Positions 19,371 through 62,978 of a stretch of 64,000 nt of DNA are shown piece after piece. Each line of letters begins with the position of its first letter. Positions within the stretch are counted from its first letter, which is position 1. The notes under the pieces are model-generated. The model was given only the letters and a program-made list of their open reading frames with translations, was not told the origin of the DNA and ran no database searches. Origin of the DNA: Cliona cf. orientalis (lineage: Eukaryota; Porifera; Demospongiae; Clionaida; Clionaidae); assembly GCA_963930775.1 (NCBI GenBank), contig OZ005693.1, positions 7,376,006 through 7,440,005 on the forward strand, given 5' to 3'. Made by a program: the position numbers and the translations under genes.

Positions 19371-19886
19371 GTGGAGTTTAACTGTTGAATAGCTTCAAGA
19401 AAAAAGGTCCAGTGGGTATCATGCATTAGCCTCGAACAGCGTGTGAGGGGGAGGGGACATTTGAGATATCATAAAACGCAAAATGGTGCGTATTGTGAGT
19501 GATATTGTGGCCTAATTACCTAGTACTAGTATATAAAGCATGGTTTAGGGGTAGCTATTCATAATGTGTAAAGATCACATCCTGAGGCTGCCTTTTCAAA
19601 CATATTATCAACCTTAGCAGGATATGGAAGCATAGTAAGTATAGTCGTTACCATATAATTATACATTGTTCCACCAAGGATAGTGTCATACATCCATCTG
19701 CAATATACAATACACTGATTTTATGAGTGAATTATTCATTGTATGCGAAATATTTTCAATAGTGGGGAAAGAACGTTACTATTACTGGTGTTCACTCTAA
19801 TCATAAATCTTAATAAATTTTGGCATACCAACTATAGTAACTATACTTTAACTGTAGTAGTAGCTAGACAGACTAGAATTTTGTTT
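19371..19886. repeat. 3' flank repeat of transporter A3
   Basis: The compact version of the A-type 3' flank (TCCTGAGGCTGCCTTTTCAA, AGCAGGATATGGAAGCATAG, GGATAGTGTCATACATCC, GGTGTTCACTCTAA). It serves as the reference for recognising insertions in the flanks of A2 and A6. Confidence 0.65.
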
Positions 19887-21722
19887 TTATGTTGTGCAGT
19901 CACTATCTGAATCACCATCAGTTATTGTTGTACCAGTATTAGGGACTTGTACAAGATAGCGTGAGTACACCTCCTCAATGTCTCTTTGACGGAATAAGAC
20001 GTCATCTCTTTCTCTGTGCTTGTATTTCTTAGCTGCAAATATGAAGAGAATAAAACCAAGCAGCCCTATTAATAAAATAAAGCCTAGGTACACCGAGCAA
20101 CAGCTTATTACAGATGGGAGAGTTAGAGGCCATGGTTGAGTGAGAGAGACGGGAAGGATGGCAGTTATTCCAATGAGTTGAAATACACCTTGAATAGCAA
20201 AAAACACCCCAACTAGTAGTCCCTTCATTGAGTGGGGGCTCTGAGCTGAGATGAATTCTAAAGTTGTAGTCGTGATCAAAAGTGGTCCAGTTCCAAGAAA
20301 GAAACTAGGTGCTATGAAGACACTCCAGTGCATGTTGAGAGGATTGTATTCCAGTGTGTAATTGTACTTGTAAATTTGAAACATACACTGGGTAACTGTG
20401 TTATGAGATTGCTCAATTCCATTTCCTGTCTGTGAGTGTCCTATCATATCAATTATGAGCATACTAATTACTCCAAGGAGAGAGAGAACTACTCCTGTCC
20501 CCAGCCTAGTAAAAATTCTGGGCCGATTTCGCCTGAGTATGAAGAATACTATCCATATGTACAAGGGAAAACTAATGTCAGTGAAAATAGCAATCCATCC
20601 TCCAGTGTCCACTATCTTAGGTACTAGGTTATGTATAGTGCAGTTTCTTGAATAATGCCTTGGTTGTGCTATGCCAGCATGAAAGCTGAAGAGGGGGAAG
20701 ATGTATCTTGAAGCTGGTAGTTGAAGAATAAACAAAGGTCCTAATGCCACAAGAAATATTAATATCCTTAACAATGTTTTCACGTTCTCCACTTGTTCTG
20801 TTGTAAATGGTCCTCCATAAAGTTCCTTGGCAAAGTCAATTCTCGATGGAACGTAGTCATCAGTGTAGGTAAAGGCACTACGACGAAGTGGGTACTTGTG
20901 CTTCATTGCAAAGTTCAGCACTCTATAAACGGTCTTGTAAGGATTGTTTTGTCCGCATTCAACAAGGAACCATTTGTGACGTTTCCAGCATGTGATAGCA
21001 CACAATATTGATAGTGTTGAGAGTAATACTCCTGGTACTATAATATATAATGATAGCTCAGTCTTTTTTCGCAAGGAAATGCAGTTAAGTATGTTTAGAA
21101 GTGGTACATCAAGCATGGAGCTACAAACAAACACCCACGTTGCATAATGTATGAAGAGTGCCAAGTGTTCGTTGGGTGCCTCGAGTAACTGATCGAGTCC
21201 TAATTGAATGTAGTTTGCCTGAAATCCTACCAAGCCAGTGATGAATAAGACAAGAGCAAGGGAGAGTAGGATGATTCCTGCAACAGTTTTCTTAAACTGT
21301 GGTTGAAGTCCGTGATTGAGTGTAAGTCCAGTTTTTGATTCAATTGCATAAAAAGCAAGTGTACATGCAATCCCTAGAAGCATAAAACTGAATAATGTCA
21401 AGGTTAGACTGAACATAACTGTTCTAAATCTTCCACAGCGGACATCAGCGATGAATCCACTCAAAGGATAGAATGTCATAATCAAAGTCAGTGTAACATA
21501 GGGTATTAAATCGAGGATAGCTACATCTTCACTGTGTGCATAACGGCTTCCCAGTATTGAAATTGCTACAATATCTTGAATAAAAGTGTATGCTGTGCCA
21601 ACCACTGTTGCCCATAAGATGATGAGTATAGCTGCCTTGGACGAGAGGCCAAGATGTTTCGATATATTCAGTAGCCAATGTGACTTAAATCTTGATAGCA
21701 GAGGACTTGCTTCTGATGACAT
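19887..21722 (-). CDS. POT/PTR (SLC15)-like transporter, subfamily A, copy 3
   Basis: Single-exon, 611 residues starting at MSSEASPLL. Approximate map: EASPLL at 4-9; TM1 29-49 without ExxER; MFS loop SGFIADVRCGRFRT at 88-101; GFQANYIQLGLDQL at 166-179; a soluble linker at 246-317 with RRSAFTYTDD (280-289) and GGPFTTEQVENVKT (303-316); an extracytosolic loop around 428-463; EFISAQSPHSMKG at 489-501; and a tail with RQRDIEEVYSRYL followed by acidic residues. About twelve membrane segments. Its start faces the start of the hydrolase gene 822 bp away, so the two are divergent neighbours that could share control. This is the A member of the only complete A-GH-B module. Confidence 0.87.
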   Translation of the reverse strand: MSSEASPLLSRFKSHWLLNISKHLGLSSKAAILIILWATVVGTAYTFIQDIVAISILGSRYAHSEDVAILDLIPYVTLTLIMTFYPLSGFIADVRCGRFRTVMFSLTLTLFSFMLLGIACTLAFYAIESKTGLTLNHGLQPQFKKTVAGIILLSLALVLFITGLVGFQANYIQLGLDQLLEAPNEHLALFIHYATWVFVCSSMLDVPLLNILNCISLRKKTELSLYIIVPGVLLSTLSILCAITCWKRHKWFLVECGQNNPYKTVYRVLNFAMKHKYPLRRSAFTYTDDYVPSRIDFAKELYGGPFTTEQVENVKTLLRILIFLVALGPLFILQLPASRYIFPLFSFHAGIAQPRHYSRNCTIHNLVPKIVDTGGWIAIFTDISFPLYIWIVFFILRRNRPRIFTRLGTGVVLSLLGVISMLIIDMIGHSQTGNGIEQSHNTVTQCMFQIYKYNYTLEYNPLNMHWSVFIAPSFFLGTGPLLITTTTLEFISAQSPHSMKGLLVGVFFAIQGVFQLIGITAILPVSLTQPWPLTLPSVISCCSVYLGFILLIGLLGFILFIFAAKKYKHRERDDVLFRQRDIEEVYSRYLVQVPNTGTTITDGDSDSDCTT

Positions 21723-22544
21723 GATCTCAAGTCATGGAATTAGATACTTGTGAAGCTATGGTGATTAGCTACAATATTGTTACTTTTCAGGTCACATTGC
21801 TCCACTGACGGACACGTTAGAGTAACAGTGAACTTTTTCTTAATACAAGTTTACACTGAAAGTAGTTGTAGTTTCAACGTCAACCTGTTAGTGTACTAGG
21901 TTGTTCTTTTTAGTTGCCTATTGGATAGCATGATATTATAAGGGTAACGGTTTTGAGTGCACACCTCACAATTCTAGCTACTCTCATATCAGTCCTTATG
22001 TTCTTGGTTGTCATGCACACTAGACAATCCCTGGCACAGGTCAAATCTTAGCAATAATAACACAGGCTACCCTCTAGACATTCAAAAAGTTACACAAAAG
22101 CATAACAACCAACCTGTACCAACAACTGCATGTATCCGTTCCTGTGTTACAGTACAGTTTAGCCATGTACTCAAATGATCATGATACTACACACTTAGTT
22201 TGAGCCCCCCTGCATAGTGGTCACGTACTACTGGTAATTACACTACATACTAAATATTTATTACTACTATAATATTATACTATTATGAGCAGTCTTGGTA
22301 TGATTCTCTCATGCAGGCAGGTTCTAAAACACTTGAGAGTCTTGATTAGGGGTGACTACCCACATAATGTCATAACAGACCAACTCAGATTGAGCCACAC
22401 ATTCAGATGGTTCCATATTATTATCACTCACAATTTAAGTACCTATGAATTCATGTAGATACTAAGCAAGCTAGCTGTATATTGCACTGACAAAATTAAT
22501 TTATTCATTGAACTGTTAATATACTTTGACATTGTGTTAGTCAT
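21723..22544. promoter_or_regulatory. Divergent intergenic region between transporter A3 and the hydrolase
   Basis: The region separates two genes transcribed away from each other, so it should hold both 5' ends. The 100 bases next to A3 retain parts of the A-type 5' flank. A repeat block (CAGGCAGGTTCTAAAACACT near 22,314) also occurs in the distal 5' repeats. No TATA box or named factor site was identified. Confidence 0.4.
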
Positions 22545-24308
22545 ATGATGCATGAATATATTCCACTAGTCAGGATGAGGATAGCAATGAGTCTTTATCA
22601 GGAGCTAGTTCTATGTTTTGTTATTTCTATAGTTGTCCCTTTCAGTGGGGCTCAGTTTCCTCCCCCTCCAAAATCGGCTCCTCTTGGAGTTGAGGTAGGA
22701 GCAAGACCACAGGCATTTTGTGATGCTGTGAAAGAGTCAAGGCCATTTATTGATGAACAGGGCAAAGCTGTTGATGTAGATGAAAGTGGGTGGCCTAAAG
22801 CCGATGGAAAGATGGTTGTGTTTGATCTCCGTCCCGCATTTGCCTGGGCTCCGCCTATTGATGATCCACAGAAGAAAATTCCTCAAAACCTTGATGGTAT
22901 TTGGAAACTAAATTTTTCAGGAATTGCAAATGTCTCCATTGCTGATGGCTCTTTCAGTGGCTCAATCACTAACGTACAATTTGACAACACGACTAATATC
23001 ACCACTGCAGACATCAACTATCCTAAAGGAGAAGCATTGATGGTGTTGTACTTCAATAACACTCAGCGCACACCAGCTGACCCCAAAGGAAGTGGAGTGG
23101 TGAACATATCCATCATAGCACCTTATTGCGACCAGAAAAATCCAACTCTCTTTAATCCAATGCTAATTAAAGCACTACAGCCTTTTGACCATCTCCGGTT
23201 TATGGGTGTGCTAGGAACCAACTATCAGGCTGGCTATTATGGTGATACTGGAAATCACATAATTTCTTGGGATCAACGGTCATTTCCAAATGATTCAGTA
23301 GCAACAGGATGGAGTGATCTACGACTAGGAAAGCATGGCTGGCCATGGGAGTATGTTATTTTGCTAGCTAATGAAGTGAATAAGAATATATGGATCAACA
23401 TACCAGTCTCTGCCAGTGGTTGCCTACCCTATCCTGAACCTAACTGTGAGCAAGACACAAGCTCTTACGTATACCAATTAGCACTGCTCTTAAAGAGTGG
23501 CAATGACTATACTGGTAACAAAGGACTAAGTAATAATCTTAAAATCTACATTGAACATAGTAATGAAGTGTGGAATTTTGGCTTTACCCAATACATATGG
23601 AATAAGCTCAATGCTATTGACCGAGTAAAAAAAGACCCCAAACTATCTATTGCATTTAATAGCACTGACCAGGAAGAATGGGCTAGACGAAATCATTACT
23701 TAAGGCTAATGGAAATAGGGAAGGTGTTTGCTTCAGTTTTTGGATCCACAGCATACAATCGTAAATTTTATTTGATTTTTGCTGAATGGACCATCTTTCC
23801 TCAGCACTATGATGCCATTCTTAACTGGGCAAATATGGTATTTGGAGTTGCTCCTCGGAGTTATGTTTATGCTCTTGCTCAAACTCATTATTTCAGTGAT
23901 AGTGCAGCCCCTGCAAACGCTAATATTGAGCAAATATTGACTGCAATCAAGAACAGTAGTGACACTGCCTATGTTAACACATTAGAGATTGGTGAAATTG
24001 CAAGTGTTTGGGGACTAAAGCTTGCTGCGTATGAAGCAGGTCCAGGAATGAAAGTTGGAGACACAGCCAACATTGGCAATCGAATTGAAGCACAAAGAAA
24101 CCCAGAAATTAAGCAGATAGTTGTGGATGATATACTTAAGAATTGGTTCGGTTTGCCTCGACCTGGAGATCTCTACAACTATTTCTCCCTAGCTGGTGCC
24201 TATTCTCGCTATGGCTGCTGGGGAGCCACTGATGACCTCTCTGACCTCACCACACCAAAGTATCAGGCCATACTAGAAGTTACAAAGACGTTGCAGAGTA
24301 CCGGGTAG
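22545..24308 (+). CDS. Secreted bacterial-type glycoside-hydrolase-like protein
   Basis: Single-exon gene of 587 residues. The first Met is at 22,545, but MSLYQELVLC at residue 15 (22,587) gives a better signal peptide, with likely cleavage after FSGA before QFPPPP. The protein resembles bacterial clan-A (TIM-barrel) glycosidase-like proteins, as recalled from planctomycete and proteobacterial homologues. Evidence is LRFMGVLGTN, KHGWPWEYVILLANEV, IYIEHSNEVWN with Glu341 as likely acid/base, YLRLMEIGKVF, AAYEAGPG with Glu497 as candidate nucleophile, and a C-terminal SRYGCWGATDD. Many N-x-S/T sites fit secretion or a lysosomal lumen. The substrate cannot be named. It is divergent from transporter A3 and convergent with transporter B1 435 bp away. 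Bacterial-like sequence and lack of introns suggest horizontal transfer, which is unproven. Confidence 0.8.
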   Translation: MMHEYIPLVRMRIAMSLYQELVLCFVISIVVPFSGAQFPPPPKSAPLGVEVGARPQAFCDAVKESRPFIDEQGKAVDVDESGWPKADGKMVVFDLRPAFAWAPPIDDPQKKIPQNLDGIWKLNFSGIANVSIADGSFSGSITNVQFDNTTNITTADINYPKGEALMVLYFNNTQRTPADPKGSGVVNISIIAPYCDQKNPTLFNPMLIKALQPFDHLRFMGVLGTNYQAGYYGDTGNHIISWDQRSFPNDSVATGWSDLRLGKHGWPWEYVILLANEVNKNIWINIPVSASGCLPYPEPNCEQDTSSYVYQLALLLKSGNDYTGNKGLSNNLKIYIEHSNEVWNFGFTQYIWNKLNAIDRVKKDPKLSIAFNSTDQEEWARRNHYLRLMEIGKVFASVFGSTAYNRKFYLIFAEWTIFPQHYDAILNWANMVFGVAPRSYVYALAQTHYFSDSAAPANANIEQILTAIKNSSDTAYVNTLEIGEIASVWGLKLAAYEAGPGMKVGDTANIGNRIEAQRNPEIKQIVVDDILKNWFGLPRPGDLYNYFSLAGAYSRYGCWGATDDLSDLTTPKYQAILEVTKTLQSTG

Positions 24309-24743: not shown

Positions 24744-26492
24744 TTAAGAATTGCTGGATGAATTACCTGGCTGTGTGAGATAGCGGCCGTATACTTCTTC
24801 GATTTCCTGTTGACTAAAATTTTCATGATCCCTTTTTCTGTATTTGTATCGTTTAACTGTTATTATGAATAGTGTCAGACCACCCAGCCCAATAATACTG
24901 GTAATGAATAAGTGAATAAATCCGCAACTGACCACTGTAGGCATCTGGGTCCAATGCTGATTGAAGGAGAGAGGAAGGGTGAGAATATACCCAACTAGTT
25001 GAAAGAAGCCTTGAATGGCAAAGAAAATGCCAACTAGGAGACCTTTCATGGAGTGAGGGCTCTGAGCTGAGATGAATTCTAAAGTAGAAGTAGTGACAAT
25101 CAGTGGGCCAATTCCAAGGAGTATACTTGGTGGAATTAGTACTGACCAGTGCATGTTAAGAGCCCGATATTTCAGCTTGTATTTATCCTTAGTTATTTGA
25201 AACATGCATGGGGGTTCAGTCACATTCACTGGTGTTTCCAGAGTTGAATGGCCTACCACATCAATTACTAGCATGGTCATAATTCCTAAAAGACTAACAA
25301 TAATTCCAAACCCTAAACGCCTGAAGATTTTGGGCATATTCTTGCGTAGCACAGAGAAGACGATCCATATGTAAAACGGCCATAGTAGTGCTGGCATTGC
25401 CGCTTCCAAACTTCCATCTTTCAACATTACTGTCCACAGAGCAGTTGCACTGCATGGTGAATCTGGTGTTGGGCTTGTGTGAAGAGCAAAAAGGGGAAAG
25501 ATATAAACTGTTGCTGGTAATAGGAGAGTGTACACTGGTCCTAATGCTAGTAATACGGAGAGTATCCTGAACAAAGTTTTGACATTTTCAACTTCCTCTG
25601 TCGTAAAGGGTCCACCATATCTCTCTTTAGCAAAATCTAATCGAGTTGGATTATCAATACCCGAGTATGTAAAAGCACTGCGTTGCAGAGGATATTTATT
25701 TTTTCTAGCAAAGTGAAGTACCTTAATGACTGTCTTGTAAGGATTAGATAGTCCTGGCTGAATATTGAACCACTGCTGTTTCCACCAACTGATGGCTAGT
25801 GTTGTAATTAGGATGGCCGTGATAACTCCAAGGACCAATCCCATGAATATGATCGTTTTTCTTCTTAATGAAGGACAACTCAAGAAACTTTCTCCTGTTA
25901 CTATCAGAAGAGGACCGATGCTGAATGCCCACGTAGCATAGTGAATGTAGAGCCCAAGATAATGACTTGGAGCATCTAGTAACTGATCCAGTCCAAATTG
26001 TATAAAATTTGATTGATACCCTACTAAGCCAATAGTGAACAGGAGCAGTGCAAGAATCACCAAAGCACCACCTCCTTTTATGAATGCTGATGCTGTTCCA
26101 TAGTGCATAATGATTGCTGTCAGATATAGAACACATACCAGTATTAATGAAAGAAAGATACAAAGTAGGCTTATCATGATGATGCGGAAACGTCCGAAAC
26201 AGACATCTGCCATAAATCCACCAAGGGGGTAGAACATCATTACGACAGCAATTATCGTGAAAGGTATTGAATCCAGCACAACAAAAGCAGAATTTGAATG
26301 CTTTGAACCAGCTACTGCTACTATCACTCCAGAGAGAAAAATGATGTATATTGCACCAACCACAGCTGTCCAGAGGATAATGAGTGTAGTGGCCTTGGAT
26401 GGAAGGCAGAGATGTTTAGCTGGACATAATATGGAAGCTCCTGGGAGCTTATGGCTGGAGGGCTGTAGCAAGGGTCTCTCTTCATCTGACAT
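24744..26492 (-). CDS. POT/PTR (SLC15)-like transporter, subfamily B, intact copy
   Basis: Single-exon, 582 residues from MSDEERPLL. It is a clear but distant paralogue of the A group: GGFMADVCFGRFR (MFS loop), GYQSNFIQFGLDQLLDAP, LQRSAFTYSG, RYGGPFTTEEVENVKT and EFISAQSPHSMKGLLVG. A shorter loop lies between TM9 and TM10. ExxER is missing from TM1, as in subfamily A. The N-terminal EERPLL is again an acidic dileucine-type signal, found independently of the A sequence around it. The C-terminal tail keeps FSQQEIEEVYGRYL, parallel to the A group. It is the only undamaged B copy in the window and is tail-to-tail with the hydrolase gene. Confidence 0.87.
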   Translation of the reverse strand: MSDEERPLLQPSSHKLPGASILCPAKHLCLPSKATTLIILWTAVVGAIYIIFLSGVIVAVAGSKHSNSAFVVLDSIPFTIIAVVMMFYPLGGFMADVCFGRFRIIMISLLCIFLSLILVCVLYLTAIIMHYGTASAFIKGGGALVILALLLFTIGLVGYQSNFIQFGLDQLLDAPSHYLGLYIHYATWAFSIGPLLIVTGESFLSCPSLRRKTIIFMGLVLGVITAILITTLAISWWKQQWFNIQPGLSNPYKTVIKVLHFARKNKYPLQRSAFTYSGIDNPTRLDFAKERYGGPFTTEEVENVKTLFRILSVLLALGPVYTLLLPATVYIFPLFALHTSPTPDSPCSATALWTVMLKDGSLEAAMPALLWPFYIWIVFSVLRKNMPKIFRRLGFGIIVSLLGIMTMLVIDVVGHSTLETPVNVTEPPCMFQITKDKYKLKYRALNMHWSVLIPPSILLGIGPLIVTTSTLEFISAQSPHSMKGLLVGIFFAIQGFFQLVGYILTLPLSFNQHWTQMPTVVSCGFIHLFITSIIGLGGLTLFIITVKRYKYRKRDHENFSQQEIEEVYGRYLTQPGNSSSNS

Positions 26493-27889: not shown

Positions 27890-29458
27890 TATCTGACCTG
27901 CAATTAGATCCCAGGCAGTTGATAACTATGACCTTCATATTCATTAATGTCATGAGTCAAATGCAAACCTTGACACGGAAAACGGCTCATGAGATTGATG
28001 AAGCTGAGTTGATGATTTTCACATTTGGGATTGGAGAGGCTGAGAATGCTGTTTGTGGAATGAAATAATAGTTTCATGAGCCAGGGATGACTAGATTTGG
28101 CATTGTCTGCAAAATGGAGATGGTAGCTATAACGTGGTGTACCACTGTGCTGCTGGTTGGCTGAAGCTGACATAGCTCAGTACAAAAACATAGCATTAGC
28201 CTGTCATGGTGGCACTGTGTGCTATACCAACCAGCCGCACTTAGCTAGCTAGGCTAACAATTGCAGATGATGAGATTAATGAATCTAGGGGGATGGTGGG
28301 AATAGGTTCACTTCATGGGAAGTCCTACAATAGAATAATATTATGATATCTATATACCATTTTAACCAGCCACTCTGCAATGACATTGTGCATAGTCATC
28401 TTCCTTCTGATTCATAGTTTGTTGTATGAAGATAATTATGATAGCATGTGTAATGGCACTTCCATGTTATTGTTCCAGCTGTCAGGTGTTCAACCAAGTG
28501 TTGAGGGTTTTCAGACTCAATAGCCATTCAAGCTACAATATTGTTTAGTGTGCTGCTCAGTATATACTTGAGTCTTGCACCAAGGTTTTGTATCATAGTC
28601 CTGTTTTGATATAGCTAATCATCAACCTAGTACCCAAGAATTGGAGGCTATACTGTGAGGGAAGTTGATTTGATGTCGGCACCACAGTGCAGACACCACA
28701 TCAGGATTTACGTTGTTGTTGCTATGAGCACTCAACAACACTGCTGTGCAAGTGTAACAATAGTCTCTTCCCCTGTAGCCTCGAGCCCCTCCCCCAAACC
28801 CTTTACTCCCTTTAGATATAGCTATTGCCATGAAACACACCAAGGGTTTTGTGCTTGAGAGAGCTCTAGTTAAAGTATGTAATCAACCATAGCATATATA
28901 GGTACACTGACGATCATCACTTCAAGTAGTGCAGATTGTACAGCAAGTGCCATCAGACAATTTTGCCCTGCAACAGTATGACATGGCATAATTATGCTTA
29001 ATGCTTATGTGTATCTTAGATAACTGTCGAACAGCCTCACGAATAAAGACCCAGTGGGCACCTTGCATTAGCCTAAATGGGGGTGGGCTGACATTTGGGG
29101 TATTGTAAAATGCAAAATGGTGTAAAAGCACCTTGTACTAGTATTTAAACCATGGTATAGCGGTGTAAGTTTTGGCTTGTAATGTGTAGCTAATAACCAA
29201 ATTCACCACATCCTGATGCTGCTCTTTCAAATAGATTATCGACCTTAAGAGGCACAGTGAATATTATAGTGGTAGCTATACATTGTTTTGCCAAAGATAG
29301 CATCTGCAACGTGATTATTGTGAGTGAATTGTGCATTATAATTATATTATGGAAAATATTCTCAAAAAACGTTACTATTACATGTGTTTACCCAACCCTT
29401 AATTAATTTTGGTACACAAACTACTATACTGTAGTGGTAGCAAGACATAGTTTCATTT
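27890..29458. other. Module boundary: B1 distal flank, then A4 3' flank; no gene
   Basis: The first part continues the B1 upstream sequence. From about 28,540 the sequence resembles 13,200-13,560 and from about 28,920 the A-type 3' flank. Short open frames here have no recognisable motifs. Confidence 0.5.
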
Positions 29459-30031
29459 TTATGTTGTATAGTCACTATCTGAATCATCATCAGTAGTTAT
29501 TATATTGGGGACATGTACAAGATAGCGTGAGTACACCTCCTCAAGGTCTCTTTGACGGAATAAGATATCATCTCTCTCCCTGTACTTGTATTTCTTAGCT
29601 GAAAAGATTAACCACTTAATAAAACAAAGCCTAGGTATACAGAGCAACAGCTTATTACAGATAGGAGAGTTAGAGGCCATGGTTGAGTGAGAGAGACGGG
29701 AAGGATGGCAGTTATTCCAATGAGTTGAAATATACCTTGAATAGCAAAAAACACCCCAACTAATAGTCCCTTCATTGAGTGTGGGCTCTGAGCTGAGATG
29801 AATTCTATAGTTGCAGTCGTGATCAAAAGTGGTCCAGTTCCAAGAAAAAAACTAGGTGCTATGAGAACACTCCAGTGCATGTTTAGAGGATTGTATTCCA
29901 GTGTGTAATTATATTTGTCAATTTGAAACATACACTGGGTAACTGTGTTATGAGATTGCTCAATTCCATTTCCTGTCTTTGAGTGTCCTACCATGTCAAT
30001 TATGAGCATACTGATTACTCCAAGAAGAGAC
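29459..30031 (-). pseudogene. Truncated subfamily A transporter (A4)
   Basis: Only the C-terminal part, about 190-200 residues, remains. From the break it reads SLLGVISMLIIDMVGHSKTG through EFISAQSPHSMKG to VISCCSVYLGFVLL. Then about 19 nucleotides are missing around 29,600-29,620, which shifts the frame before SAKKYKYRERDD and the IEEVYSRYL-type tail (LEEVYSRYL here). At 30,031 homology to the other A copies stops abruptly and unrelated sequence begins, so TM1-8 are lost. The A-type 3' flank is still attached. Confidence 0.88.
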
Positions 30032-31393
30032 ATGGGCATCCCCTATAGTGTTGGTGAAAAAGGAAGATGGCTCTACTCGATTCTGTATGTACTTAAAGAC
30101 AATACAATATTATGCTATTTTATGTGTCCTTGCGTGTATGCAAAATTATTATATATAAAAAAGGTATCTTCTGTGTGAAACAGTGTGAGCAATGCATGCA
30201 CATGTGGACGGGCAAGTATTATATTGGATACTTGAGGCAGCTTTTTTGTTCTCAGTTCAACACAATTCAGACTTGGACCATCAAACGTGATCACCACATT
30301 TAGTTCAATGCCTACATTCTTAAACCAGAGAGTAGTTAGCTGGATACATAGTTGAGGTGTCTTCTGTGTGATCCAAGAAATGAGAATTGCAGAGTAGCTA
30401 CAAGACGTATTAACTTTGATGATGTCTCTGTTGATCGAAATACTTTAAATCCACAATATGTACCATCACACAACAGCTATATGTGATTGTAGCATGGCCC
30501 AATTGCAAGCTCTCAAAATACCGGAAGAAGATAGTGGGAGTTCATGACATAATCTATAGAGTACTTTGTTAATGTAGCTAGATGGGATAAAGGAAGGATA
30601 TTATTACGTTGTGTCTAATACAGTCATGGTGAAAGGTAGCTAAGGTTCATTATTATATTATTATTATCCATGACATTGTGAATGTAAGTGATGCAACCAT
30701 TGGCCTTGGATTCGGGCTTGGGTTTGGGTTTGCACAGCACTGCAATGCCATGCGTCAGTTAATCACCAATTATTATTAAAACAATAGTGGTATCAGACTA
30801 CTAGGCTAGAGTAATGTTAGGCTGCTAGCGTGTGCAATCTATAGTCATCGTATCGTCAGAGAAGATGCAGATGGATGTTACGTACCATTGAATCGAGCGA
30901 TTGTGATGTAACTGGGGTATGCGACGTTACCCTACCATCCAGCGTCCACGAATTTGATATAGCTAGCCAATATATCACTGGCGGACAATAATGACCTCAA
31001 CTTAACGGATTTGTTTGCACACACCGATCGCAATTCATTTCAACTCATACCAACCCGCAGAAAGGACACGTGGCTCTAGTGTCTAATGTCCCAAGGAGAC
31101 ACCCTACTCTTAAACTAGTGCAGTACGTCCCCGGGGACATACTGCCCTAGGGTACAGTGTCCGGGGGGACAACTTTAGGGGGTCATGTGAACGTAGAAAA
31201 ACTCGCAATTCGCAATTAATAGATACTCGCAATTAAAGCCCGACCTACGGTATATGTGCTGATAAAAACACATTCATGAAGTAAGCATTCACTCTACATC
31301 TACACCATTATTAAACTCTATATACAAAATTTTGGATACTCTGCAATTAATACCTAAAATTATCCAATAAATCTCGACAGAATTGGAGACCAC
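30032..31393. other. No gene recognised
   Basis: Unique-looking AT-rich sequence, with a short GC-rich patch near 31,110-31,180 containing GTCCCCGGGGAC. Nothing coding could be supported. Confidence 0.5.
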
Positions 31394-32644: not shown

Positions 32645-32920
32645 TTCTCACTATTACTTAGAATGTGTTTTCAGTTTTTGTATCCACGGCATACAATTGT
32701 AAATATTTTTTTTATTTTTGCTGAATGGACCATCTTTCCTTAGCACTGTTATGGCATTCTTAACTGGGAATTTGGAGTTCTCCTCGGAGATAATTATGTC
32801 TATGCTCTCGTCCACACTTACTATTTCAGTGATAGTGCAGCCCCTGCAAACGCTAATGTTGAGCAAATATTAGCTGCAATCAAGAACAGTAGTGAGATTG
32901 GTGAAATTGCAAGTATTTGA
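32645..32920 (+). pseudogene. Broken hydrolase fragment joined to a B-transporter fragment
   Basis: Homologous to hydrolase residues about 397-488 (sequence near AEWTIFPQ, then YFSDSAAPANAN, then EIGEIAS), with frameshifts and a short internal deletion after AIKNSS. At 32,920 the homology jumps directly to antisense transporter-B sequence. The 5' half, the catalytic Glu341 region and the 3' end including Glu497 are missing. Confidence 0.8.
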
Positions 32921-33036
32921 ACATCATTACGACAGTAATTATCATGAAAGATTCTGAATCCAGCACAACAAAAGCAGAATATGAATGCCTCAATTGAACC
33001 AGTTACTGCTAGTATCATTCAAGAGAGAAAATTGCA
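32921..33036 (-). pseudogene. Transporter B N-terminal fragment (TM1-2 region)
   Basis: About 115 bases match the intact B gene around 26,237-26,342 (ACATCATTACGACAG, then GAATCCAGCACAACAAAAGC, then AGAGAGAAAA). The rest of the B gene is gone. Placed next to the hydrolase fragment, it shows a deletion of roughly 2.2 kb within a former GH-B unit. Confidence 0.78.
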
Positions 33037-33663: not shown

Positions 33664-35502
33664 TTATGTTGTGTAGTCACTTTCTGAATCATCATCAGTA
33701 GCTGTTGTATTAGGGACATGTACAAGATAACGTGAGTACACTTCCTCAATATCTCTTTGACGAAATAAGATATCATCTCTCTCCCTGTACTTGTATTTCT
33801 TAGCTACAAATATGAACAGGGCAAAACCAAGCAGTCCCATCAATAATACAAAGCCTTGGTATACAGAGCAACAGCTTATTACAGATGGGAGAGTTAGAGG
33901 CCATGGTTGAGTGAGAGAGACGGGAAGGATGGCAGTTATTCCAATGAGTTGAAATACACCTTGAATAGCAAAAAACACCCCAACTAGTAGTCCCTTCATT
34001 GAGTGGGGGCTCTGAGCTGAGATGAATTCTAAAGTTGTAGTCGTGATCAAAAGTGGTCCAGTTCCAAGAAAGAAACTAGGTGCTATGAAAACACTCCAGT
34101 GCATGTGAAGAGGATTGTATTCCACTGTGTAATTATACTTGTAAATTTGAAACATACACTGGGTAACTGTGTTATGAGATTGCTCAATTCCATTTCCTGT
34201 CTGTGAGTGTCCTACCATGTCAATTATGAACATACTAATTACTCCAAGGAGAGACAAAACCACTCCTGTCCCCAGCCTAGTGAAAATCCTGGGCCGATTT
34301 CGCCTGAGTATGAAGAATATTATCCATATGTAGAAGGGAAAACTAATGTCAGTGAAAATAGCAATCAATCCTCCAGTGTCCACTATCTTAGGTACTAGGT
34401 TATGTATAGTGCAGTTTCTTTTTGAATAATGCCCTGCATAATGCCTTGATTGTGCTATGCCAGCATGAAAGCCGAAGAGGGGGAAGATGTATCTTGAAGC
34501 TGGTAGTTGAAGGATGAATAATGGTCCTATTGCTGCAAGGAAAAATAGTATTCTCAATAACGTTTTCACGTTCTCCACTTGTTCTGTTGTAAATGGTCCT
34601 CCATAAAGTTCCTTGGCAAAGTCAATTCTCGATGGAACGTAGTCGTCAGTGTAGGTAAAGGCACTACGACGAAGTGGGTATTTGTGCTTTATTGCAAAGT
34701 TCAGCACTCTATAAACTATTTTATATGGGTTATTTTGTCCATACTCAACAAGGAACCATTTGTGACGCTTCCAGCAGGTGATAGCATACAATATTGATAG
34801 CATTGAAAGTAAACTTACAGGCACTATAAGAAATAATGATAGCTCAGTATTTTTTCGTAAAGAAATGCAGTCAAATATATTTAGAAATGGTACATCAAGC
34901 ACGGAGCTACAAGTGAACACCCATGTGGCGTAATGTATGAAGAGTGCCAAGTGCTCGGTGGGTGCCTCAAACAACTGATCGAGTCCTAATTGAATGTAGT
35001 TTGCCTGAAATCCAACCAAACCAGTGATGAACAAAACAAGAACAAGGGAGAGTAGGATGATTACTGCAACGGTTTGCTTATACTGTGGTTGTAGTCCATG
35101 ATTAAGTGTAAGTCTACCATTTGATTCAACTGAATAAAATGCAATTGTACATGCAATCCCCAGAAGCATAAAACTGAATAACATCAAGGTTAGACTGAAC
35201 ATAGCTGTTCTAAATCTTCCACAGCGGACATCAGCGATGAATCCACTCAAAGGATAAAATATCATAATCAAAGTCAGTGTAACATACGGTATCAAATCGA
35301 GGATAGCCACATCTTCACTGCTTCCCAGTATTGACCCCGCTACCATATCTTGAATAAAAGTGTATGCTGTTCCTACCACTGTTGCCCATAAGATGATGAG
35401 TATAGCTGCCTTGGACGAGAGGCAAAGATACTTAAACTTTAGTAGCCGGTAAGAATTGAATCTTGATATGTGGTTTAGTAGAGGACTTGCTTCTGATGAC
35501 AT
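33664..35502 (-). CDS. POT/PTR (SLC15)-like transporter, subfamily A, copy 5
   Basis: Single-exon, 612 residues from MSSEASPLL, open throughout. It lacks the four residues RYAH after SILGS near residue 60 and has a four-residue duplication (HYAGHYSKR) in the loop near 355, both in-frame. All A signatures are kept: SGFIADVRCGRFRT, NYIQLGLDQLFEAP, GGPFTTEQVENVKT and EFISAQSPHSMKG. The IEEVYSRYL tail ends DDDSESDYTT. Much of TM5-6 is nearly the same as in A6, so the two are probably the closest pair. Its downstream module partners are broken: hydrolase at 41.4 kb and B at 43.1 kb. Confidence 0.86.
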   Translation of the reverse strand: MSSEASPLLNHISRFNSYRLLKFKYLCLSSKAAILIILWATVVGTAYTFIQDMVAGSILGSSEDVAILDLIPYVTLTLIMIFYPLSGFIADVRCGRFRTAMFSLTLMLFSFMLLGIACTIAFYSVESNGRLTLNHGLQPQYKQTVAVIILLSLVLVLFITGLVGFQANYIQLGLDQLFEAPTEHLALFIHYATWVFTCSSVLDVPFLNIFDCISLRKNTELSLFLIVPVSLLSMLSILYAITCWKRHKWFLVEYGQNNPYKIVYRVLNFAIKHKYPLRRSAFTYTDDYVPSRIDFAKELYGGPFTTEQVENVKTLLRILFFLAAIGPLFILQLPASRYIFPLFGFHAGIAQSRHYAGHYSKRNCTIHNLVPKIVDTGGLIAIFTDISFPFYIWIIFFILRRNRPRIFTRLGTGVVLSLLGVISMFIIDMVGHSQTGNGIEQSHNTVTQCMFQIYKYNYTVEYNPLHMHWSVFIAPSFFLGTGPLLITTTTLEFISAQSPHSMKGLLVGVFFAIQGVFQLIGITAILPVSLTQPWPLTLPSVISCCSVYQGFVLLMGLLGFALFIFVAKKYKYRERDDILFRQRDIEEVYSRYLVHVPNTTATDDDSESDYTT

Positions 35503-39480: not shown

Positions 39481-39557
39481 ATTAACAGAAGCACTAGTAC
39501 TAGGATAGTGGGTCTCGGATGTATCTGCCGACGGCTAACCCGCACCGTCGGCGCGTC

Positions 39558-40503: not shown

Positions 40504-40509
40504 CTTAGA

Positions 40510-48665: not shown

Positions 48666-48747
48666 TCACTGTATACTAGCACGAGAGTTAGCGTATACAT
48701 TTAGGTATCTAATTTTTGGCAGCAAGGTGGGTAGCTATCTAGTGCTA

Positions 48748-49260
48748 GCAGCTGTCAAGATGCTTTCATCTTTGGGCAGCTGAACCTGTCAAGATGTGTC
48801 ATCTTTAGGCAGGTAGCTAGGGTCTATTTCTTGGGTTGGGTAACTTGAACTCCATTTGTAGAAGCTGTCAAGATGTTTCATCTTTGGGCAGCTGAACCTG
48901 TCAAGATGTGTCATCTTTAGGCAGGTAGCTAGAGTCTATTTCTTGCTGGGGTTGGGTAACTTGAACTCCATTTGTAGAAGCTGTCAAGATGTTTCATCTT
49001 TGGGCAGCTGAACCTGTCAAGATGTGTCATCTTTAGGCAGGTAGCTAGAGTCTATTTCTTGCCGGGGTTGGGTAACTTGAACTCCTTTTGTAGAAGCTGT
49101 CAAGATGTTTCATCTTTGGGCAGCTGAACCTGTCAAGATGTATCATCTTTAGGCAGGTAGCTTTTATTTCTTGGGTAACTTGAACTCCATTTGTAGAAGC
49201 TGTCAAGATGCTTCATCTTTGGGCAGCTGAACCTGTCAAGATGTGTCATCTTTAGGCAGA
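48748..49260. repeat. Tandem array 1 (TGTCAAGATG units)
   Basis: About five units of about 100-120 bp. Each has two copies of TGTCAAGATGTNTCATCTTT (one followed by GGGCAGCTGAACC, the other by AGGCAGGTAGCTAG), then CTATTTCTTG, GGGTAACTTGAACTCC and TTTGTAGAAG. Unit length differs mainly around the TTCTTGCTGGGGTTGGG part. No long open frame. Confidence 0.88.
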
Positions 49261-55278: not shown

Positions 55279-57117
55279 TTATGTTGTATAGTCACTATCT
55301 GAATCACCACCAGTAGTTGTTATATTGGGGACATGTACAAGATAGCGTGAGTACACCTCCTCAATGTCTCTTTGACGGAATAAGATATCATCTCTCTCCC
55401 TGTACTTGTATTTCTTAGCTGCAAATATGAACAGGATAAAACCAAGCAGTCCTATTAATAAAACAAAGCCTAGGTATACAGAGCAACAGCTTATTACAGA
55501 TGGGAGAGTTAGAGGCCATGGTTGAGTGAGAGAGACGGGAAGGATGGCAGTTATTCCAATGAGTTGAAATGCACCTTGAATAGCAAAAAACACCCCAACT
55601 AGTAGTCCCTTCATTGAGTGGGGGCTCTGAGCTGAGATGAATTCTAAGGTTGTAGTTGTGATCAAAAGTGGTCCAGTTCCAAGAAAGAAACTAGGTGCTA
55701 TGAGAACACTCCAGTGCATGTTGAGAGGATTGTATTCCACTGTGTAATTGTACTTGTAAGTTTGAAACATACACTGGGTAACTATGTTATGAGATTGCTC
55801 ATTTCCATTTCCTGTCTGTGAGTGTCCTACCATATCAATTATGAGCATGCTGATCACTCCAAGAAGAGACAAAACCACTCCTGTCCCCAGCCTAGTAAAA
55901 ATTCTGGGCCGATTTCGCCTGAGTATCAAGAATATTATCCATATGTACAAGGGAAAACTAATGTCGGTGAAAATAGCAATCAATCCTCCAGTCTCCACTA
56001 TCTTAGGCACTAGGTTATGTATAGTGCAGTTTCTTATTGAATAATGCCCTGATTGTGCTATGCCAGCATGAAAGCTGAAGAGGGGGAAGATGTATCTTGA
56101 AGCTGGTAGTTGGAGAATAAACAAAGGTCCTAATACCACAAGAAAAATTAAAATCCTCAACAACGTTTTCACGTTCTCCACTTGTTCTGTTGTAAATGGT
56201 CCTCCATAAAGTTCCTTGGCAAAGTCAATTCTCGATGGAACATAGTCATCAGTGTAGGTAAAGGCACTACGACGAAGTGGGTATTTGTGCTTTACTGCAA
56301 AGTTCATCACTCTATAAACGATTTTATATGGGTTATTTTGTCCATACTCAATAAGGAACCATTTGTGACGTTTCCAGCAGGTGATACCATACAATATTGA
56401 TAGCATTGAAAGCAAACTTACAGGCACTATGAGAAATAATGATAGCTCAGTATTTTTTTGCAAAGAAATGCAGTCAAATATATTTAGAAATGGTACATCA
56501 AGCACGGAGCTACAGGTGAACACCCATGTGGCGTAATGTATGAAGAGTGCCAAGTGCTCGGTGGGTGCCTCAAACAACTGATCGAGTCCTAATTGAATGT
56601 AGTTCGCCTGAAATCCAACCAAACCAGTGATGAATAAGACAAGAACAAAGGAGATTAGGATGATTACTGCAAGAGCTTGCTTATACTGTGGTTGTAGTCT
56701 ATGATTAAGTGTAAATCTACCATTTGATTCAACTGAATAAAATGCAATTGTACATGCAATCCCCAGAAGCATAAAACTGAATAGCATTAAGGTTAGACTG
56801 AACATAGCTGTTCTAAATCTTCCACAGTGGACATCAGCGATGAATCCACTCAAAGGATAAAATATCATAATTAAAGTCAGTGTAACATAGGGTATCAAAT
56901 CGAGGATAGCCACATCTTCACTGTGTGCATAACGGCTTCCGAGTATTGAACCCGCTACAAAATCTTGAATAAAAGTGTATGCTGTGCCAGCGACTGTTGC
57001 CCATAAGATGATGAGTATAGCTGCCTTGGACAAGAGGCAAAGATGCTTAAACTTTAGTAGCCGGTAAGAATTGAATCTTGATATGCGGTTTAGTAGAGGA
57101 CTTGCTTCTGATGACAT
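55279..57117 (-). CDS. POT/PTR (SLC15)-like transporter, subfamily A, copy 6
   Basis: Single-exon, 612 residues from MSSEASPLL, open to the end. It has the MFS loop SGFIADVHCGRFRT, NYIQLGLDQLFEAP, RRSAFTYTDD, GGPFTTEQVENVKT, EFISAQSPHSMKG and the tail RQRDIEEVYSRYL with an acidic end, GGDSDSDYTT. RYAH near residue 60, absent from A5, is present here. As in all A copies, TM1 has no ExxER. Its module partners at 59.3 kb (hydrolase) and 61.2 kb (B) are both broken, so if active it works without local partners. Confidence 0.87.
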   Translation of the reverse strand: MSSEASPLLNRISRFNSYRLLKFKHLCLLSKAAILIILWATVAGTAYTFIQDFVAGSILGSRYAHSEDVAILDLIPYVTLTLIMIFYPLSGFIADVHCGRFRTAMFSLTLMLFSFMLLGIACTIAFYSVESNGRFTLNHRLQPQYKQALAVIILISFVLVLFITGLVGFQANYIQLGLDQLFEAPTEHLALFIHYATWVFTCSSVLDVPFLNIFDCISLQKNTELSLFLIVPVSLLSMLSILYGITCWKRHKWFLIEYGQNNPYKIVYRVMNFAVKHKYPLRRSAFTYTDDYVPSRIDFAKELYGGPFTTEQVENVKTLLRILIFLVVLGPLFILQLPASRYIFPLFSFHAGIAQSGHYSIRNCTIHNLVPKIVETGGLIAIFTDISFPLYIWIIFLILRRNRPRIFTRLGTGVVLSLLGVISMLIIDMVGHSQTGNGNEQSHNIVTQCMFQTYKYNYTVEYNPLNMHWSVLIAPSFFLGTGPLLITTTTLEFISAQSPHSMKGLLVGVFFAIQGAFQLIGITAILPVSLTQPWPLTLPSVISCCSVYLGFVLLIGLLGFILFIFAAKKYKYRERDDILFRQRDIEEVYSRYLVHVPNITTTGGDSDSDYTT

Positions 57118-57340: not shown

Positions 57341-58380
57341 ATGTATTTACGATGTTCACGTGCAGTTGTTATCGGTACAGGTTTGCTCTTATGGTTTTAC
57401 TGAATGTCCAGGGGATAACTTGTTATTATTGCTAAGATTTAACATATGTCAGGGTTTGTCTAGTGTGCATGACAACCAAGATTTTTTTGGGTTTCAGCAG
57501 AACATAAGGGTTGATATGAGCATAGCTAGAATTGTGAGGCCTACGTGATCTATTCCTGTGTGTTTAGCCAGGAGTACATTACTAGGAGTGTGCAACGCAC
57601 ACATGAGTAGTGCAAACATCTCTTTCCAGATTTGACATCACAGAATATCATTAATATGCAACCACTAAAACCATGAAGCCATGAAGGTTATGTCTACACT
57701 GTCCTATCAGTAACTAGCTGCAGCTGCAGCTATAACTCAGTGGTTGCAACTTAAGTACCTTCAGGCCCATGTACAAGGGTGGTTATGATGTCAAATCTGG
57801 AAAGAGATGTTTGCACTACTATTGTGTGCGTTGCACACTCCTAGTAATGTACTCCTGGTTTAGCTTTTTATACGTACACATACTCATATGATCATGTTGC
57901 TACGTCATCTCTCACCATTAGTAATAGTAAGTATAGTAACATGGCAGCTGCACATTGTTTGTAGTTTAGCTGTATGTTTCACTATTGTAATGTACACTAG
58001 CAGTCAAAAAAGCTATGTAGGATAAACATACTATACAGGAAGGTAGGAAGCTCACACAGCATAATATTAACATGCGTTGTAGAATAAATATAGCAGCTGT
58101 GCTAGCATGCTGCTCTGGTGGATCAGCCCTTGTGCTAGTGTATACTTTATGGTAAACCATTAGCCACATTACATAATAATGTAATCTACTGCACATATAC
58201 AGAACAACTAACAGTTTATATTTTTGTGACATTAATTTTAGAAAGTTTGATACTATCCTGCATAGCGGTTGCATACTACACGTAATTATATTATGTAGAT
58301 AGCTATTTGCTGCTTTTTGAACCATAATCATCTAGGACTATAGTCTAGGTCTGTTATATCAGTCTTTGTCTTTCAGGCAG
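57341..58380. repeat. Distal 5' repeat of the transporter unit, copy 3
   Basis: Matches 16,257-17,000 and 35,700-36,351 plus 40,776-40,880. It includes the LTR-free site ACGTAATTATATTATGTAG near 58,281-58,299 and is interrupted by the MITE at 57,568. Confidence 0.75.
57568..57858. mobile_element. MITE with 35-bp TIRs and 5-bp target duplication
   Basis: 291 bp. CCAGGAGTACATTACTAGGA at the left, continuing GTGTGCAACGCACAC, is inverted at the right as GTGTGCGTTGCACAC then TCCTAGTAATGTACTCCTGG. TTTAG flanks both sides. The related site near 35,934 reads GTGTTTAGCTTTGTATAC without the element. No coding capacity; superfamily not assigned. Confidence 0.9.
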
Positions 58381-59272
58381 ATTGGTTGCCAGTTCGTCTG
58401 TATTTGAGAGCATAAGATCAAGGATGTTGCCTTTGGCGTGAGTAGGTTTATCTATTGTCCCCGGCGCCAAAATGTCGGGCTACTATAGTGAGAATGGATA
58501 CCTCATGGAGTTATCCAAATAAGAGAGACGAAGAATAGAACAAGAAATCAAGGAAAGATTCAAACCAGGTGAGATTGGTCAAGGCATGACGTCATGCACC
58601 TACATGTATCGTTCATGCATATTGTGGCTACATATTGCAATCTGTTGATCAATCTATCACATGCCCATACTATAAAATTACAGCAACATAGTTCTGGGTG
58701 TTTGCAAAAGAGTGCTCAAGTAAAAGTAGCTACTAAATCAGTCCAAAAACTGCTGCCAAAATGCATCAAAAACACATACTCTCAGAGGGTCGAAATTTCC
58801 AAAATTTTCTGGGGGAGCATGCCCCCAGACCCTCCTAGGTGGGCTGTGAGCATATGCCCACAGCCTAACTGTTGTCACAGTACACATTCATAGGTCTTAG
58901 CCCCCCCCCCCCTCTCCCCCCACCACTTTTGCTACCTATTCTCTGCCCTTGGAGCTAACAGTTTAGATGTCAAATGAAGCTATCTGCTTTGATGTATCTT
59001 TCAGAAGTTAGAGACAGCTGCTCAGATGGATAAAGTACCAGCAACTCTAGTATGATTCAGTGAAAACATAGATGGTGAAACTTCCAAAAAGAAGTGAAAC
59101 TATAACCATATTTTGTTATTTTTGCAATACTGCGCACACGCAAATACGTTGATATGGTACGGGGTGTTAGCCATAATTGACTGTTCCTCCATTCCACTAT
59201 TCCATTTCACCATTCCATTGAATATATAGACACCCATTTGGCGCTTGGGCTCTGGCAAGACTTCCAGAACCG
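58381..59272. repeat. LINE fragment, unassigned insertion and hydrolase flank
   Basis: 58,384-58,450 repeats the LINE endonuclease piece. From 58,455 an extra segment starts GTCCCCGGCGCCAAAATG and runs to about 58,945, including a C-rich run near 58,900. From 58,955 the hydrolase upstream flank (TTTAGATGTCAAATGAAGC) resumes. No gene. Confidence 0.5.
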
Positions 59273-60529
59273 TTCTAATGAAGTGTGGCTTTAGCCAATA
59301 CAGAATATAAGCTCAATGCTATTGATCGAGTAAAAAAAGACCCTGAAATATCTAGTGCATTTAACAGCACTGACCAGGAAGAATAAAAATAATCATTATT
59401 AAGGCTAATGGAAATAGGGAAAGTATTTATTTGCTTCAGTTTTTGGATCCACAGCATACAACTGTAATTTTATTTGATTTTTACTGAATGGACTATCTTT
59501 CCTCAGCATTATTATGGCATTCTTAACTGGGAATATAATATTATGGTAATTATAATAATTATGTATATGTTCTTGCCCAAACTTATTATTTCAGTGATAG
59601 TGCAGCCCCTGCAAACGCTAATGTTGAGCAAATATTAATTGCAATTAAGAACGGTAGTGACACTGCCTATGTTAATACATTGGATATTGATAAGTGTTCC
59701 GGGGGCTAAAGCTTGCTGCATATTATGAAGCAGGTCCAGGAATGAAAGTTGGAGACACAGCCAACATTGGCAATCGAATAATTGAAGCTCAATGAAACCC
59801 AGAAGTTAAGCATGATATACCTAAGAATTGGTTAGCCCACATGAACTAGGGCATGCAATTACAGTACTTGCCTGTTTGCCAATCTTTGGATCTACCGTTA
59901 GCGTAATCATCACCCCCTTCCACTTCAATGAAGTACAAGGAGGAATTTGGGTGATAAAGGGCGGCCTGAGACAATGCAGACACACAGTGATGGGGAGATC
60001 CAGGATGCTTCTTTTACAGACTAAGCGTCCTTACAACCAGCCACTTGAACCTTTTGGCGTGCACGATGCACTCCCCATCAAGGACTTCTGCTTGTCCCTG
60101 GTCACCGATAAGAAGATAAAGCCTTAGGGTGGATGGAAGGGGTATATAAACGATAGCCAGCTGCCGTTCACAGTAAGCATACGATAGCTTCACAATCGTT
60201 GTGCAATAAATAGAAAGGAGCACATGTTTCATTGCTGCACTGAGCATGCTCAGTTGTTGTATGATGTCATCCTGAACTATAGTATACCACAACTATCTGA
60301 CAGTTAGCTAACTGTGTATTAAACTGTGTTGATGTACTTTCATTGTGCATGAACACTTGCTTTGGTTTGCCTCAACCTGGAGATCTGTACAACTATATAT
60401 TATCCCTAGCCAGTGCCTATTCTCACTATGGCTGCTGGGGAGCGACTGATGACCTCTCTGACCTCCGAACCCACACCAAAGTATCAGGACATACTAGAAG
60501 TTACAAAGATGTTACAGAGTACTGGGTAG
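59273..60529 (+). pseudogene. Broken hydrolase copy of module 4
   Basis: Same structure as the 41.4-kb copy. It starts at the SNEVWN codons, has frameshifts, retains YFSDSAAP and YEAGPG regions, is split by the shared insert at 59,834-60,361 and ends with the YGCWGATDD region and a stop at 60,527. Compared with the 41.4-kb copy it keeps a longer ALNSTDQEE-to-GKVF part (59,365-59,440) that is deleted there. Residues 1-335 are absent. Confidence 0.88.
59834..60361. mobile_element. Insertion shared with the module 3 hydrolase pseudogene
   Basis: 528 bases nearly the same as 41,914-42,447, bounded by TTGGTT (59,828-59,833 and 60,362-60,367). The plus-strand 99-residue frame is retained with two replacements. 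Confidence 0.6.
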
Positions 60530-61224: not shown

Positions 61225-62978
61225 TTAAGAATTGCTGGATAAATTCACTGGCGGTGTGAGATAACGGCTGAATACTTCCTTGATTTCCTGTTGACTAAAA
61301 TTTTCGTGATCCCTTTTTCTGTATTTATATCGTTTAACTGTTATTAAGAATAGTATCAGACCAACCAGCCCAATAATACTGGTAATGATTAAGTGAATAA
61401 ATCCGCAACTGACCGCTGTAGGCATCTGGGTCCAATGCTGATTGAAGGAGAGAGGAAGGGTGAGAACATACCCAACTAGTTGAAAGAAGCCTTGAATGGC
61501 AAAGAAAATGCCAACTTTGAGACCTTTCATGGAGTGAGGGCTCTGAGCTGAGATGAATTCTAAAGTAGAAGTAGTAACAATCAGTGGGCCAATTCCAAGG
61601 AGTATACTTGGTGGAATTAGTACTGACCAGTGCATGTTAAGAGCCTGGTATTTCAGCTTGTATTTATTCTTAGTTATTTGAAACATGCATGGGGATTCAG
61701 TCACATTCACTGGCGTTTCCAGAGTTGAATGGCCTACCACATCAAATACTAGCATGGTCATAATTCCTAACAGACTAACAACAATTCCAAACCCTAAACG
61801 TCTGAAGATTTTGGGAATATTCTTGCGTAGCACAGAGAAGACGATCCATATGTAAAATGGCCATAGTAGTGCTGGCATTGCCGCTTTCAAACTTCCATCT
61901 TTCAACATTACTGTCCACAGAGCAGTTGCACTGCATGGTGAATCTGGTGTTGGGCTTGTGTGAAGAGCAAAAAGGGGAAAGATATAAACTGTTGCTGGTA
62001 ATAGGAGAGTGTACACTGGTCCTAATGCTATTAATACGGAGAGTATCCTGAACAAGGTTTTGACATTTTCAACTTCCTCTGTCGTAAAGGGTCCCCCATA
62101 TCTCTCTTTAGCAAAATCTAATCGAGTTGGATTGTCAATACCCGAGTATGTAAAAGCACTGCGTTGCAGAGGATATTTATTTTTTCTAGCAAAGCAAATT
62201 CTCTTGATGACAGTCTTGTAAGGATTAGAGAGTCCTGGCTGAATATTGAACCACTGCTGTTTCCACCAACTGATGGCTAGTGTTGTAGTTAGAATAGCCA
62301 TGATAACTCCAAGGACCAATCCTATAAATATGAATGCTCCCCTTTTTAACGAAAAACAACTCAAGAAAGTTGCCCCTATTAGTAACAAAGCAGGAGCAAA
62401 GCTGAATGCCCATAAAGCATAATGAATGTAGAGCCCAAGATAATGACTTGGAGCATCTAGTAACTGATCCAGTCCAAATTGTATAAAATTTGATTGATAC
62501 CCTACTAAGCCAATAGTGAACAGGAGCAGTGCAGGAATCATCAAAGCACCACCTTCTTTCATGAATACTGATGCTGTTCCATAGTGCATAATGATTGCTG
62601 TCAGATATAGAACACATATATACCAGTATTAATGAAAGGAAGATACAAAGTAGGCTTATCATGATGATGCGGAAGCGTCCAAAACAGACATCTGCCATAA
62701 TTAAATCCGCTTAGGGGGTAGAACATCATTACGACAGCAATTATCATGAAAGGTATTGAGTCTAGCACAACAAAAGCAGAATTTGAATCCTTTGGACCAC
62801 TTACTGCTAATATCATTGCAGAAAGAGAAATGATATATATTGCACCAACCACAGCTGTCCAGAGGATAATGAGTGTAGTGGCCTTGGATGGAAGGCAGAG
62901 ATGTTTAGCTGGACATATAGAAGCTCCTGGCAGCTTATGGCTGGAGGGTTGTAGCAAGGGTCTCTCTTCATCTGATAT
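61225..62978 (-). pseudogene. Subfamily B transporter, degenerate copy
   Basis: Almost full length, but with three disabling changes compared with the intact B gene. The start codon position (62,976-62,978) reads ATA. Four extra bases lie near 62,699-62,703 (GCCATAATTAAATCC against GCCATAAATCC). Four more lie near 62,617-62,621 (ACACATATATACCAG against ACACATACCAG). The region after them (61,225-62,589, 454 residues) is still open and keeps GYQSNFIQFGLDQL, RYGGPFTTEEVENVKT, EFISAQSPHSMKG and SQQEIKEVFSRYL. Decay therefore seems recent, or a shorter product starts internally. Confidence 0.87.

Follow-up and report, generated by a model that had tools for sequence, protein, structure and literature searches.

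The systems closest to the locus described here are a pair of transporters, a clan of glycoside hydrolases and a group of sponge enzymes. For chicken PHT1 (SLC15A4), the passages of the published account that deal with the binding site give Arg44, Lys180 and Glu473 as the substrate clamp and state that a change of Arg44 had little effect on TASL binding (PMC10502012). For the hydrolases of Spongilla mesocytes, the sections concerned report best hits that are mostly bacterial at 40-70% identity, mostly unannotated, and host-like in GC content and codon use, and the table given there includes cellulase-like enzymes and sleB (PMC10176882). Here we analyse a 64,000-nucleotide stretch of the sponge Cliona cf. 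orientalis (hereafter the window; C5:7376006-7440005, C5 being contig OZ005693.1 of assembly GCA_963930775.1, a genome of 216.8 Mb in 149 contigs), in which a glycosidase-like gene (GH) on the plus strand lies between two kinds of POT-like transporter gene, A and B, on the minus strand. We think it probable that a transferred glycosidase has been copied as a passenger in a transporter array, so that the three genes owe their proximity to history and would not have to work jointly.

The transporters share with SLC15A4 and SLC15A3 (PF00854), which are their best sequence matches among solved structures, the glutamate of the tenth membrane helix (TM10), the stretch GGPFT.E.VE.VK and an N-terminal acidic di-leucine motif, but they differ in the absence of ExxER, the POT motif of the first membrane helix, in a glutamine in place of the lysine of TM4, and in being single-exon genes set in large arrays. 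As for the enzyme, its fold matches fall among clan GH-A enzymes, a clan to which GH10, GH51, GH53 and GH5 belong, and it carries, in the order to be expected, an Asn-Glu pair followed by another Glu; it differs from them by an identity of 8-13% and a TM-score of at most 0.49 (best 50 of 68 matches) and by an extra N-terminal beta-rich part. Like the Spongilla hydrolases, among which it may already figure, it is a putative sponge hydrolase with bacterial best hits, whereas the Spongilla candidates lie on different contigs and section 10 of that report makes no mention of transporter neighbours (PMC10176882).

The layout was mapped by blastn of the window against itself and by tblastn of the A, GH and B proteins, and it upheld the order, orientation and approximate coordinates that a preliminary description had read from the letters alone. 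The only complete set, at 19.9-26.5 kb, has all three frames open: A (19887-21722, minus strand; 611 amino acids with EASPLL near the N-terminus), GH (22545-24308, plus strand; intronless, at most 587 amino acids since the start is uncertain, with the expected catalytic pair E341/E497) and B (24744-26492, minus strand; 582 amino acids with N-terminal EERPLL, SLC15A4 being its nearest solved relative), so that the 5' end of GH faces that of A and its 3' end that of B. The same order and orientation recur in three partial sets, which lie at 29.0-33.0, 33.7-43.4 and 55.3-63.0 kb, and the longer alignments between sets run over kilobases with E = 0, far beyond chance. Set 2 consists of short pieces, namely a truncated and frameshifted 3' part of A with its downstream flank (29021-30042, minus strand; the A piece itself at 29462-30042 in two frames), an internal GH fragment of about 235 bp (32661-32895, plus strand; E 3e-71) and a B fragment of about 116 bp (32919-33034, minus strand; E 3e-32). 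Set 3 comprises an intact A (33664-35502, minus strand), a GH lacking its 5' part and carrying stops, frameshifts and an insertion (41436-42605, plus strand) and the last 100 codons of B (43066-43365, minus strand). In set 4 an intact A (55279-57117, minus strand) is followed by a GH truncated and damaged in the same manner (59280-60526, plus strand) and by a B broken into three frames by frameshifts (61225-62978, minus strand). The preliminary description had called these sets decayed; in sets 3 and 4 this applies to GH and B, whereas the A genes there have open frames of 616 amino acids. It had also spoken of shared spacers: the region downstream of A does match across all four sets and the GH-B spacer among sets 1, 3 and 4, while in the A-GH spacer set 1 has only about 170 bp in common with sets 3 and 4, and in inverted orientation (21964-22133 against 35910-35739 in set 3 and 57539-57358 in set 4). 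Because a run of 200 N separates A from GH in set 3 (41006-41205), their linkage rests there on the scaffold join; the order across this gap is collinear with set 4.

Taken gene by gene, GH and B are each intact in one of the four sets, and A in three of the four as well as in three places where it stands on its own. These are two intact single-exon copies at 8322-10151 and 13783-15621 (both minus strand), with no adjoining GH or B match, and another just beyond the window at C5:7441563-7443398, from which the nearest following GH match is some 70 kb away. Over all 15 pairs of the six intact A copies the NG86 dN/dS ratio is 0.25-0.47, with dS of 0.12-0.24, which indicates constraint on A, while three of the four sets have lost their GH and B. 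The damaged GH genes of sets 3 and 4 both begin at about codon 343, directly after a dispersed repeat, and both carry at codon 534/535 an insertion (529 and 523 bp, respectively) that is 97.7% identical between the two; the shared truncation and insertion imply that GH was already dead when the block was copied. A further GH piece, at C5:7514398, has a like repeat upstream. The repeat itself, to which the truncated GH pieces are joined, lies at 58953-59276 of the window and recurs at 41.2, 45.9, 48.1 and 53.4 kb, and it occurs on many contigs, with at least 67 match rows when 40 of 211 candidates were scored, although a single copy may account for several of these rows. Between A and GH, set 3 also contains a long terminal repeat (LTR) retroelement on the minus strand (36351-40780; terminal repeats at 36351-36611 and 40528-40780, 92.7% alike), with protease, reverse transcriptase, RNase H and integrase pieces in a Ty3-like order. 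Set 4 has the empty site near 58284-58289, and the element would have entered set 3 after the block was copied.

There is also a second intact copy of the glycosidase gene. The genome search for GH gave 11 matches, of which two are full-length and free of stops, the one of set 1 (GH1) and GH2 at C5:7878988-7880736, both therefore on the same contig of 11.5 Mb. The GH2 protein is 83% identical to GH1, and at the DNA level the likeness does not extend beyond the coding sequence. Between them dN/dS is 0.18 and dS 0.51 (NG86); as this dS exceeds the 0.12-0.24 of the A copies, the duplication of GH appears to be older than the spread of A. At 1.5 kb upstream of GH2 lies a truncated POT copy on the opposite strand, with an intact one about 4 kb beyond, and these copies belong to another subfamily, 46-50% identical to A. 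Downstream, minus-strand frames follow without any B match up to 7889500 (about 9 kb); a large frame on this side has a P-loop-like stretch, as judged by eye. The pair of POT and GH is thus found twice and the complete trio once.

What kind of enzyme GH may be was approached through its family and its predicted fold. Searches of GH in Pfam, NCBIfam, PHROGs and PDB sequences returned no meaningful match, only weak or stray single hits; tblastn found 17 plasmid records at 22-28% identity (best E 1e-15), and in phage records no relative was found. Pattern scans built on the single protein gave 10 matches in genome contigs and 2 in viral ones, none of which was confirmed, the patterns being probably too specific, and an alignment-based scan confirmed at least 570 relatives. 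The 80 that were kept are all bacterial by title, and the best among the matches listed come from a Fimbriimonadaceae bin (47% identity) and a cyanobacterial bin (46%). We aligned 56 of these 80 loci, leaving out 24 with shorter, split or near-duplicate matches. N340, E341, W343, N344, Y496 and E497 are invariant in 10 of 10 and in 57 of 57 family sequences; NE.WN was itself a search criterion for the 56 bacterial rows and Y496-E497 was not. When 57 members were run against Pfam and NCBIfam, stray hits to single members were obtained and no model that describes the family. Judged by these members, GH belongs to a bacterial family without a Pfam or NCBIfam description. The AF2 model is good overall (pLDDT 89.9, pTM 0.89), poor at the N-terminus, and includes the N-terminal beta-rich part mentioned above. 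Foldseek returned 68 matches at E <= 0.001 (best E 1.5e-8), with a probability of about 1 to GH10, GH51, GH53 and GH5 enzymes, and among the best 50 GH10 xylanases predominate and GH51 arabinofuranosidases come second, alongside galactanases, mannanases and some other enzymes. In the model, GH resembles a clan GH-A-like glycosidase, with a (beta/alpha)8-barrel suggested by the fold matches and both expected glutamates kept. The description of GH as a secreted glycosidase-like enzyme agrees with these results in its second half; for secretion there is a leader-like N-terminus, seen by eye in the part where the model is poor. Bacterial neighbourhoods were also tried as a clue to the substrate and set aside, as the 10 neighbours scanned around five relatives displayed no common pattern, and none of the 80 bacterial loci contains a POT match. 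The closest bacterial relative does have a GH16 gene at a distance of about 1 kb (L052 1996-2916).

With respect to the origin of GH, two trees were built, one with GH1, GH2 and 56 bacterial relatives and a more careful one with GH1, GH2 and 27 of these 56. The sponge proteins share a clade with three bacteria, namely an armatimonadote, a cyanobacterium and an acidobacterium (SH-aLRT 98; 100/99 in the careful tree), nested among several bacterial phyla, on a long branch of 0.65 and 0.73, respectively. GC content at third codon positions (GC3) is 0.34-0.35 for GH and 0.36-0.37 for A and B, hence host-like. Both copies sit within the 11.5-Mb contig, and matches to Wnt, an animal marker, were found on three other contigs. 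In 14 control genomes Wnt gave no match; as those named among them are bacterial, this speaks only against a bacterial genome. It is likely, from comparison with bacterial relatives, that GH was acquired by transfer from bacteria.

Sequence comparison confirms that the transporters are POT-related, as the preliminary description had proposed: the nearest solved relatives are SLC15A4 and SLC15A3 (E 5e-16 for A and 6e-21 for B), and against PF00854, with its cut-off of 27 bits, B (39.9), the B of set 4 (42.4) and the A copies at 13.8 kb (28.5) and 55.3 kb (29.3) score above, while three of the five A copies of the window remain below (23.9 at 19.9 kb, 24.4 at 33.7 kb and no match at 8.3 kb). A and B are 51% identical with dS of about 1.9, near saturation, and are old paralogues. 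In the whole genome, A finds at least 72 matches (72 of 680 candidates scored), of which 64 are free of internal stops; most are one open frame over the whole protein, in arrays on contigs C5, C9 and C17. With PF00854, for which 105 of 414 candidates were scored, there are at least 110 match rows, a large share of them from other arrays on C4, C5 and C9, and 63 further frames of at least 500 amino acids beyond those found with A. Large intronless POT-derived arrays were noticed on C9, C5, C4, C17, C2, C13, C15 and others. A and B belong to this very large family of arrayed, intronless genes, which is derived from SLC15/POT. Split PF00854 matches at C19:6440628-6458134 resemble intron-bearing SLC15 genes, which suggests that the ordinary kind is probably present too. 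Among the open-licence papers listed in our searches we found no description of an SLC15 expansion in sponges; one may be in print elsewhere.

Several residues set this family apart. Out of 30 frames examined, 29 hold the first helix and all 29 lack ExxER; E..ER does occur in one frame, but there it is confined to the C-terminal tail, and four of four further intronless copies lack the motif as well. In an alignment of 19 POT copies, the lysine of the PHT1 VKANITPFGADQ stretch (TM4) aligns with glutamine in all 19, the TM10 glutamate is kept in all 19, and GGPFT.E.VE.VK is common to the A/B family and SLC15A4/SLC15A3. We read the lysine of VKANITPFGADQ as Lys180 of the clamp and Arg44 as the R of ExxER, the first helix lying outside the printed alignments. 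On this reading, just one of the three charged residues that form the PHT1 peptide clamp would remain in the transporters, and the loss of ExxER together with the change of the clamp lysine to glutamine makes classical proton-peptide symport doubtful. Endolysosome-type sorting signals had been proposed for both kinds of transporter. The acidic di-leucine motif, which we take to be such a signal when N-terminal, is indeed present in all six intact A copies and in B, and in 19 of the 30 frames overall; shuffles of the same 30 residues yield it in 45 to 241 of 2000 trials, which tempers the claim.

In essence the preliminary description had seen in the trio a digestion-and-export unit, for example for products of bacterial cell walls. 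The fuller form of that idea is that GH digests a food-derived polymer in the endolysosome, that A and B export the products, and that selection has kept the three together. It draws on the adjacency of all three intact genes in set 1, on the di-leucine motifs of A and B, on the constraint acting on A and GH, and on a POT gene adjoining GH at both intact GH loci. However, GH and B are dead in three of four sets, a dead GH was copied along with its block, GH2 has no B within about 9 kb, and no GH is found among the open reading frames of at least 170 amino acids that lie within 1.5 kb on either side of 23 other POT copies. The cell-wall version fares no better, as neither a lysozyme nor a peptidoglycan hydrolase appears by name among the best 50 of the 68 fold matches and two of the three peptide-clamp residues would be lost. 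The evidence against a selected unit being the stronger, we regard it as improbable; the trio has the look of a side effect of local copying and not of an established functional unit. Could some of the decayed sets instead be artefacts of assembly, arising from haplotypes left unresolved or from a false join across the 200 N, and not true paralogous sets? The gap does fall within set 3, and identity between sets 3 and 4 is as high as 95.6-97.2% over GH-B, but it is only 90% over A, the retroelement is found in set 3 and not in set 4, and the order across the gap agrees with that of set 4, which leaves this explanation very little room.

There are also observations that weigh against the passenger reading and the enzyme assigned to it. 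At both intact GH loci a POT copy stands head to head with GH, a point in favour of the preliminary description, since a functional link would explain it too; it is countered by the fact that the POT copy at one locus belongs to another subfamily than that at the other. Constraint is seen on GH1 as well as on GH2, from which it follows that the enzyme matters. The fold matches are moderate, with a TM-score of at most 0.49, an rmsd of 5.5-16.8 and an identity of 8-13% for the best 50 of 68. N-glycosylation sequons, considered as a mark of adaptation to the secretory path, were not convincing and were dropped: GH1 has 9 (shuffle mean 4.6, reached by 67 of 2000 shuffles) and GH2 has 10 (4.9; 32 of 2000), the reversed motif occurs 6 and 7 times, respectively, and bacterial members average 4.1 with up to 10. 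Finally, the trees include bacterial relatives only, so that another eukaryote may have been the donor, or the gene may go far back in animals. The possibility that GH is of ancient eukaryotic descent and has disappeared from most animals gains from this restriction and from the long branch to the bacterial neighbours, yet the strongly supported nesting among several bacterial phyla, the lack of introns and the presence of just two intact copies, both on one contig, lead us to hold it unlikely.

Under the passenger reading, the locus would be one segment of a tandemly expanded, intronless transporter family derived from SLC15/POT, into which a glycosidase gene, likely bacterial and by now host-like in GC3, was placed between an A-type and a B-type gene. 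Segmental duplication would then have copied pieces of the block, and selection may have kept A in most copies and one GH and one B here. The enzyme would most likely be a secreted, retaining beta-glycanase of the clan GH-A type, cutting a beta-linked polysaccharide in a secretory or digestive compartment, and A and B would most likely be endolysosomal carriers of small solutes, though not classical proton-coupled peptide symporters. It is tempting to go further and to imagine that, in an early animal lineage, a large intronless SLC15-derived family gave up proton-peptide symport to export non-peptide digestion products such as oligosaccharides from digestive vesicles, and was coupled at one place to an enzyme captured from bacteria; we offer this as a speculation with a small chance of being right.

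Of greater interest than the module are two side results, the GH family in an animal and the carrier arrays. An intact, constrained gene in an animal represents a bacterial glycosidase-like family that counts hundreds of relatives and, for the 57 members scanned, is covered by neither Pfam nor NCBIfam; it adds to the bacterial-type hydrolases reported in sponges and provides a concrete enzyme to assay. The arrays of SLC15-derived carriers, whose peptide and proton motifs are altered in the copies examined, raise the question of which solutes are moved across digestive membranes. Elsewhere in the window, a tandem repeat at 48746-49259 has a unit of 116 bp in 4.6 copies with 92% matches. In the genome at large, SRCR domains are very numerous, with at least 172 matches (150 of 2082 candidates scored) on contigs C8, C10, C12, C17 and others.

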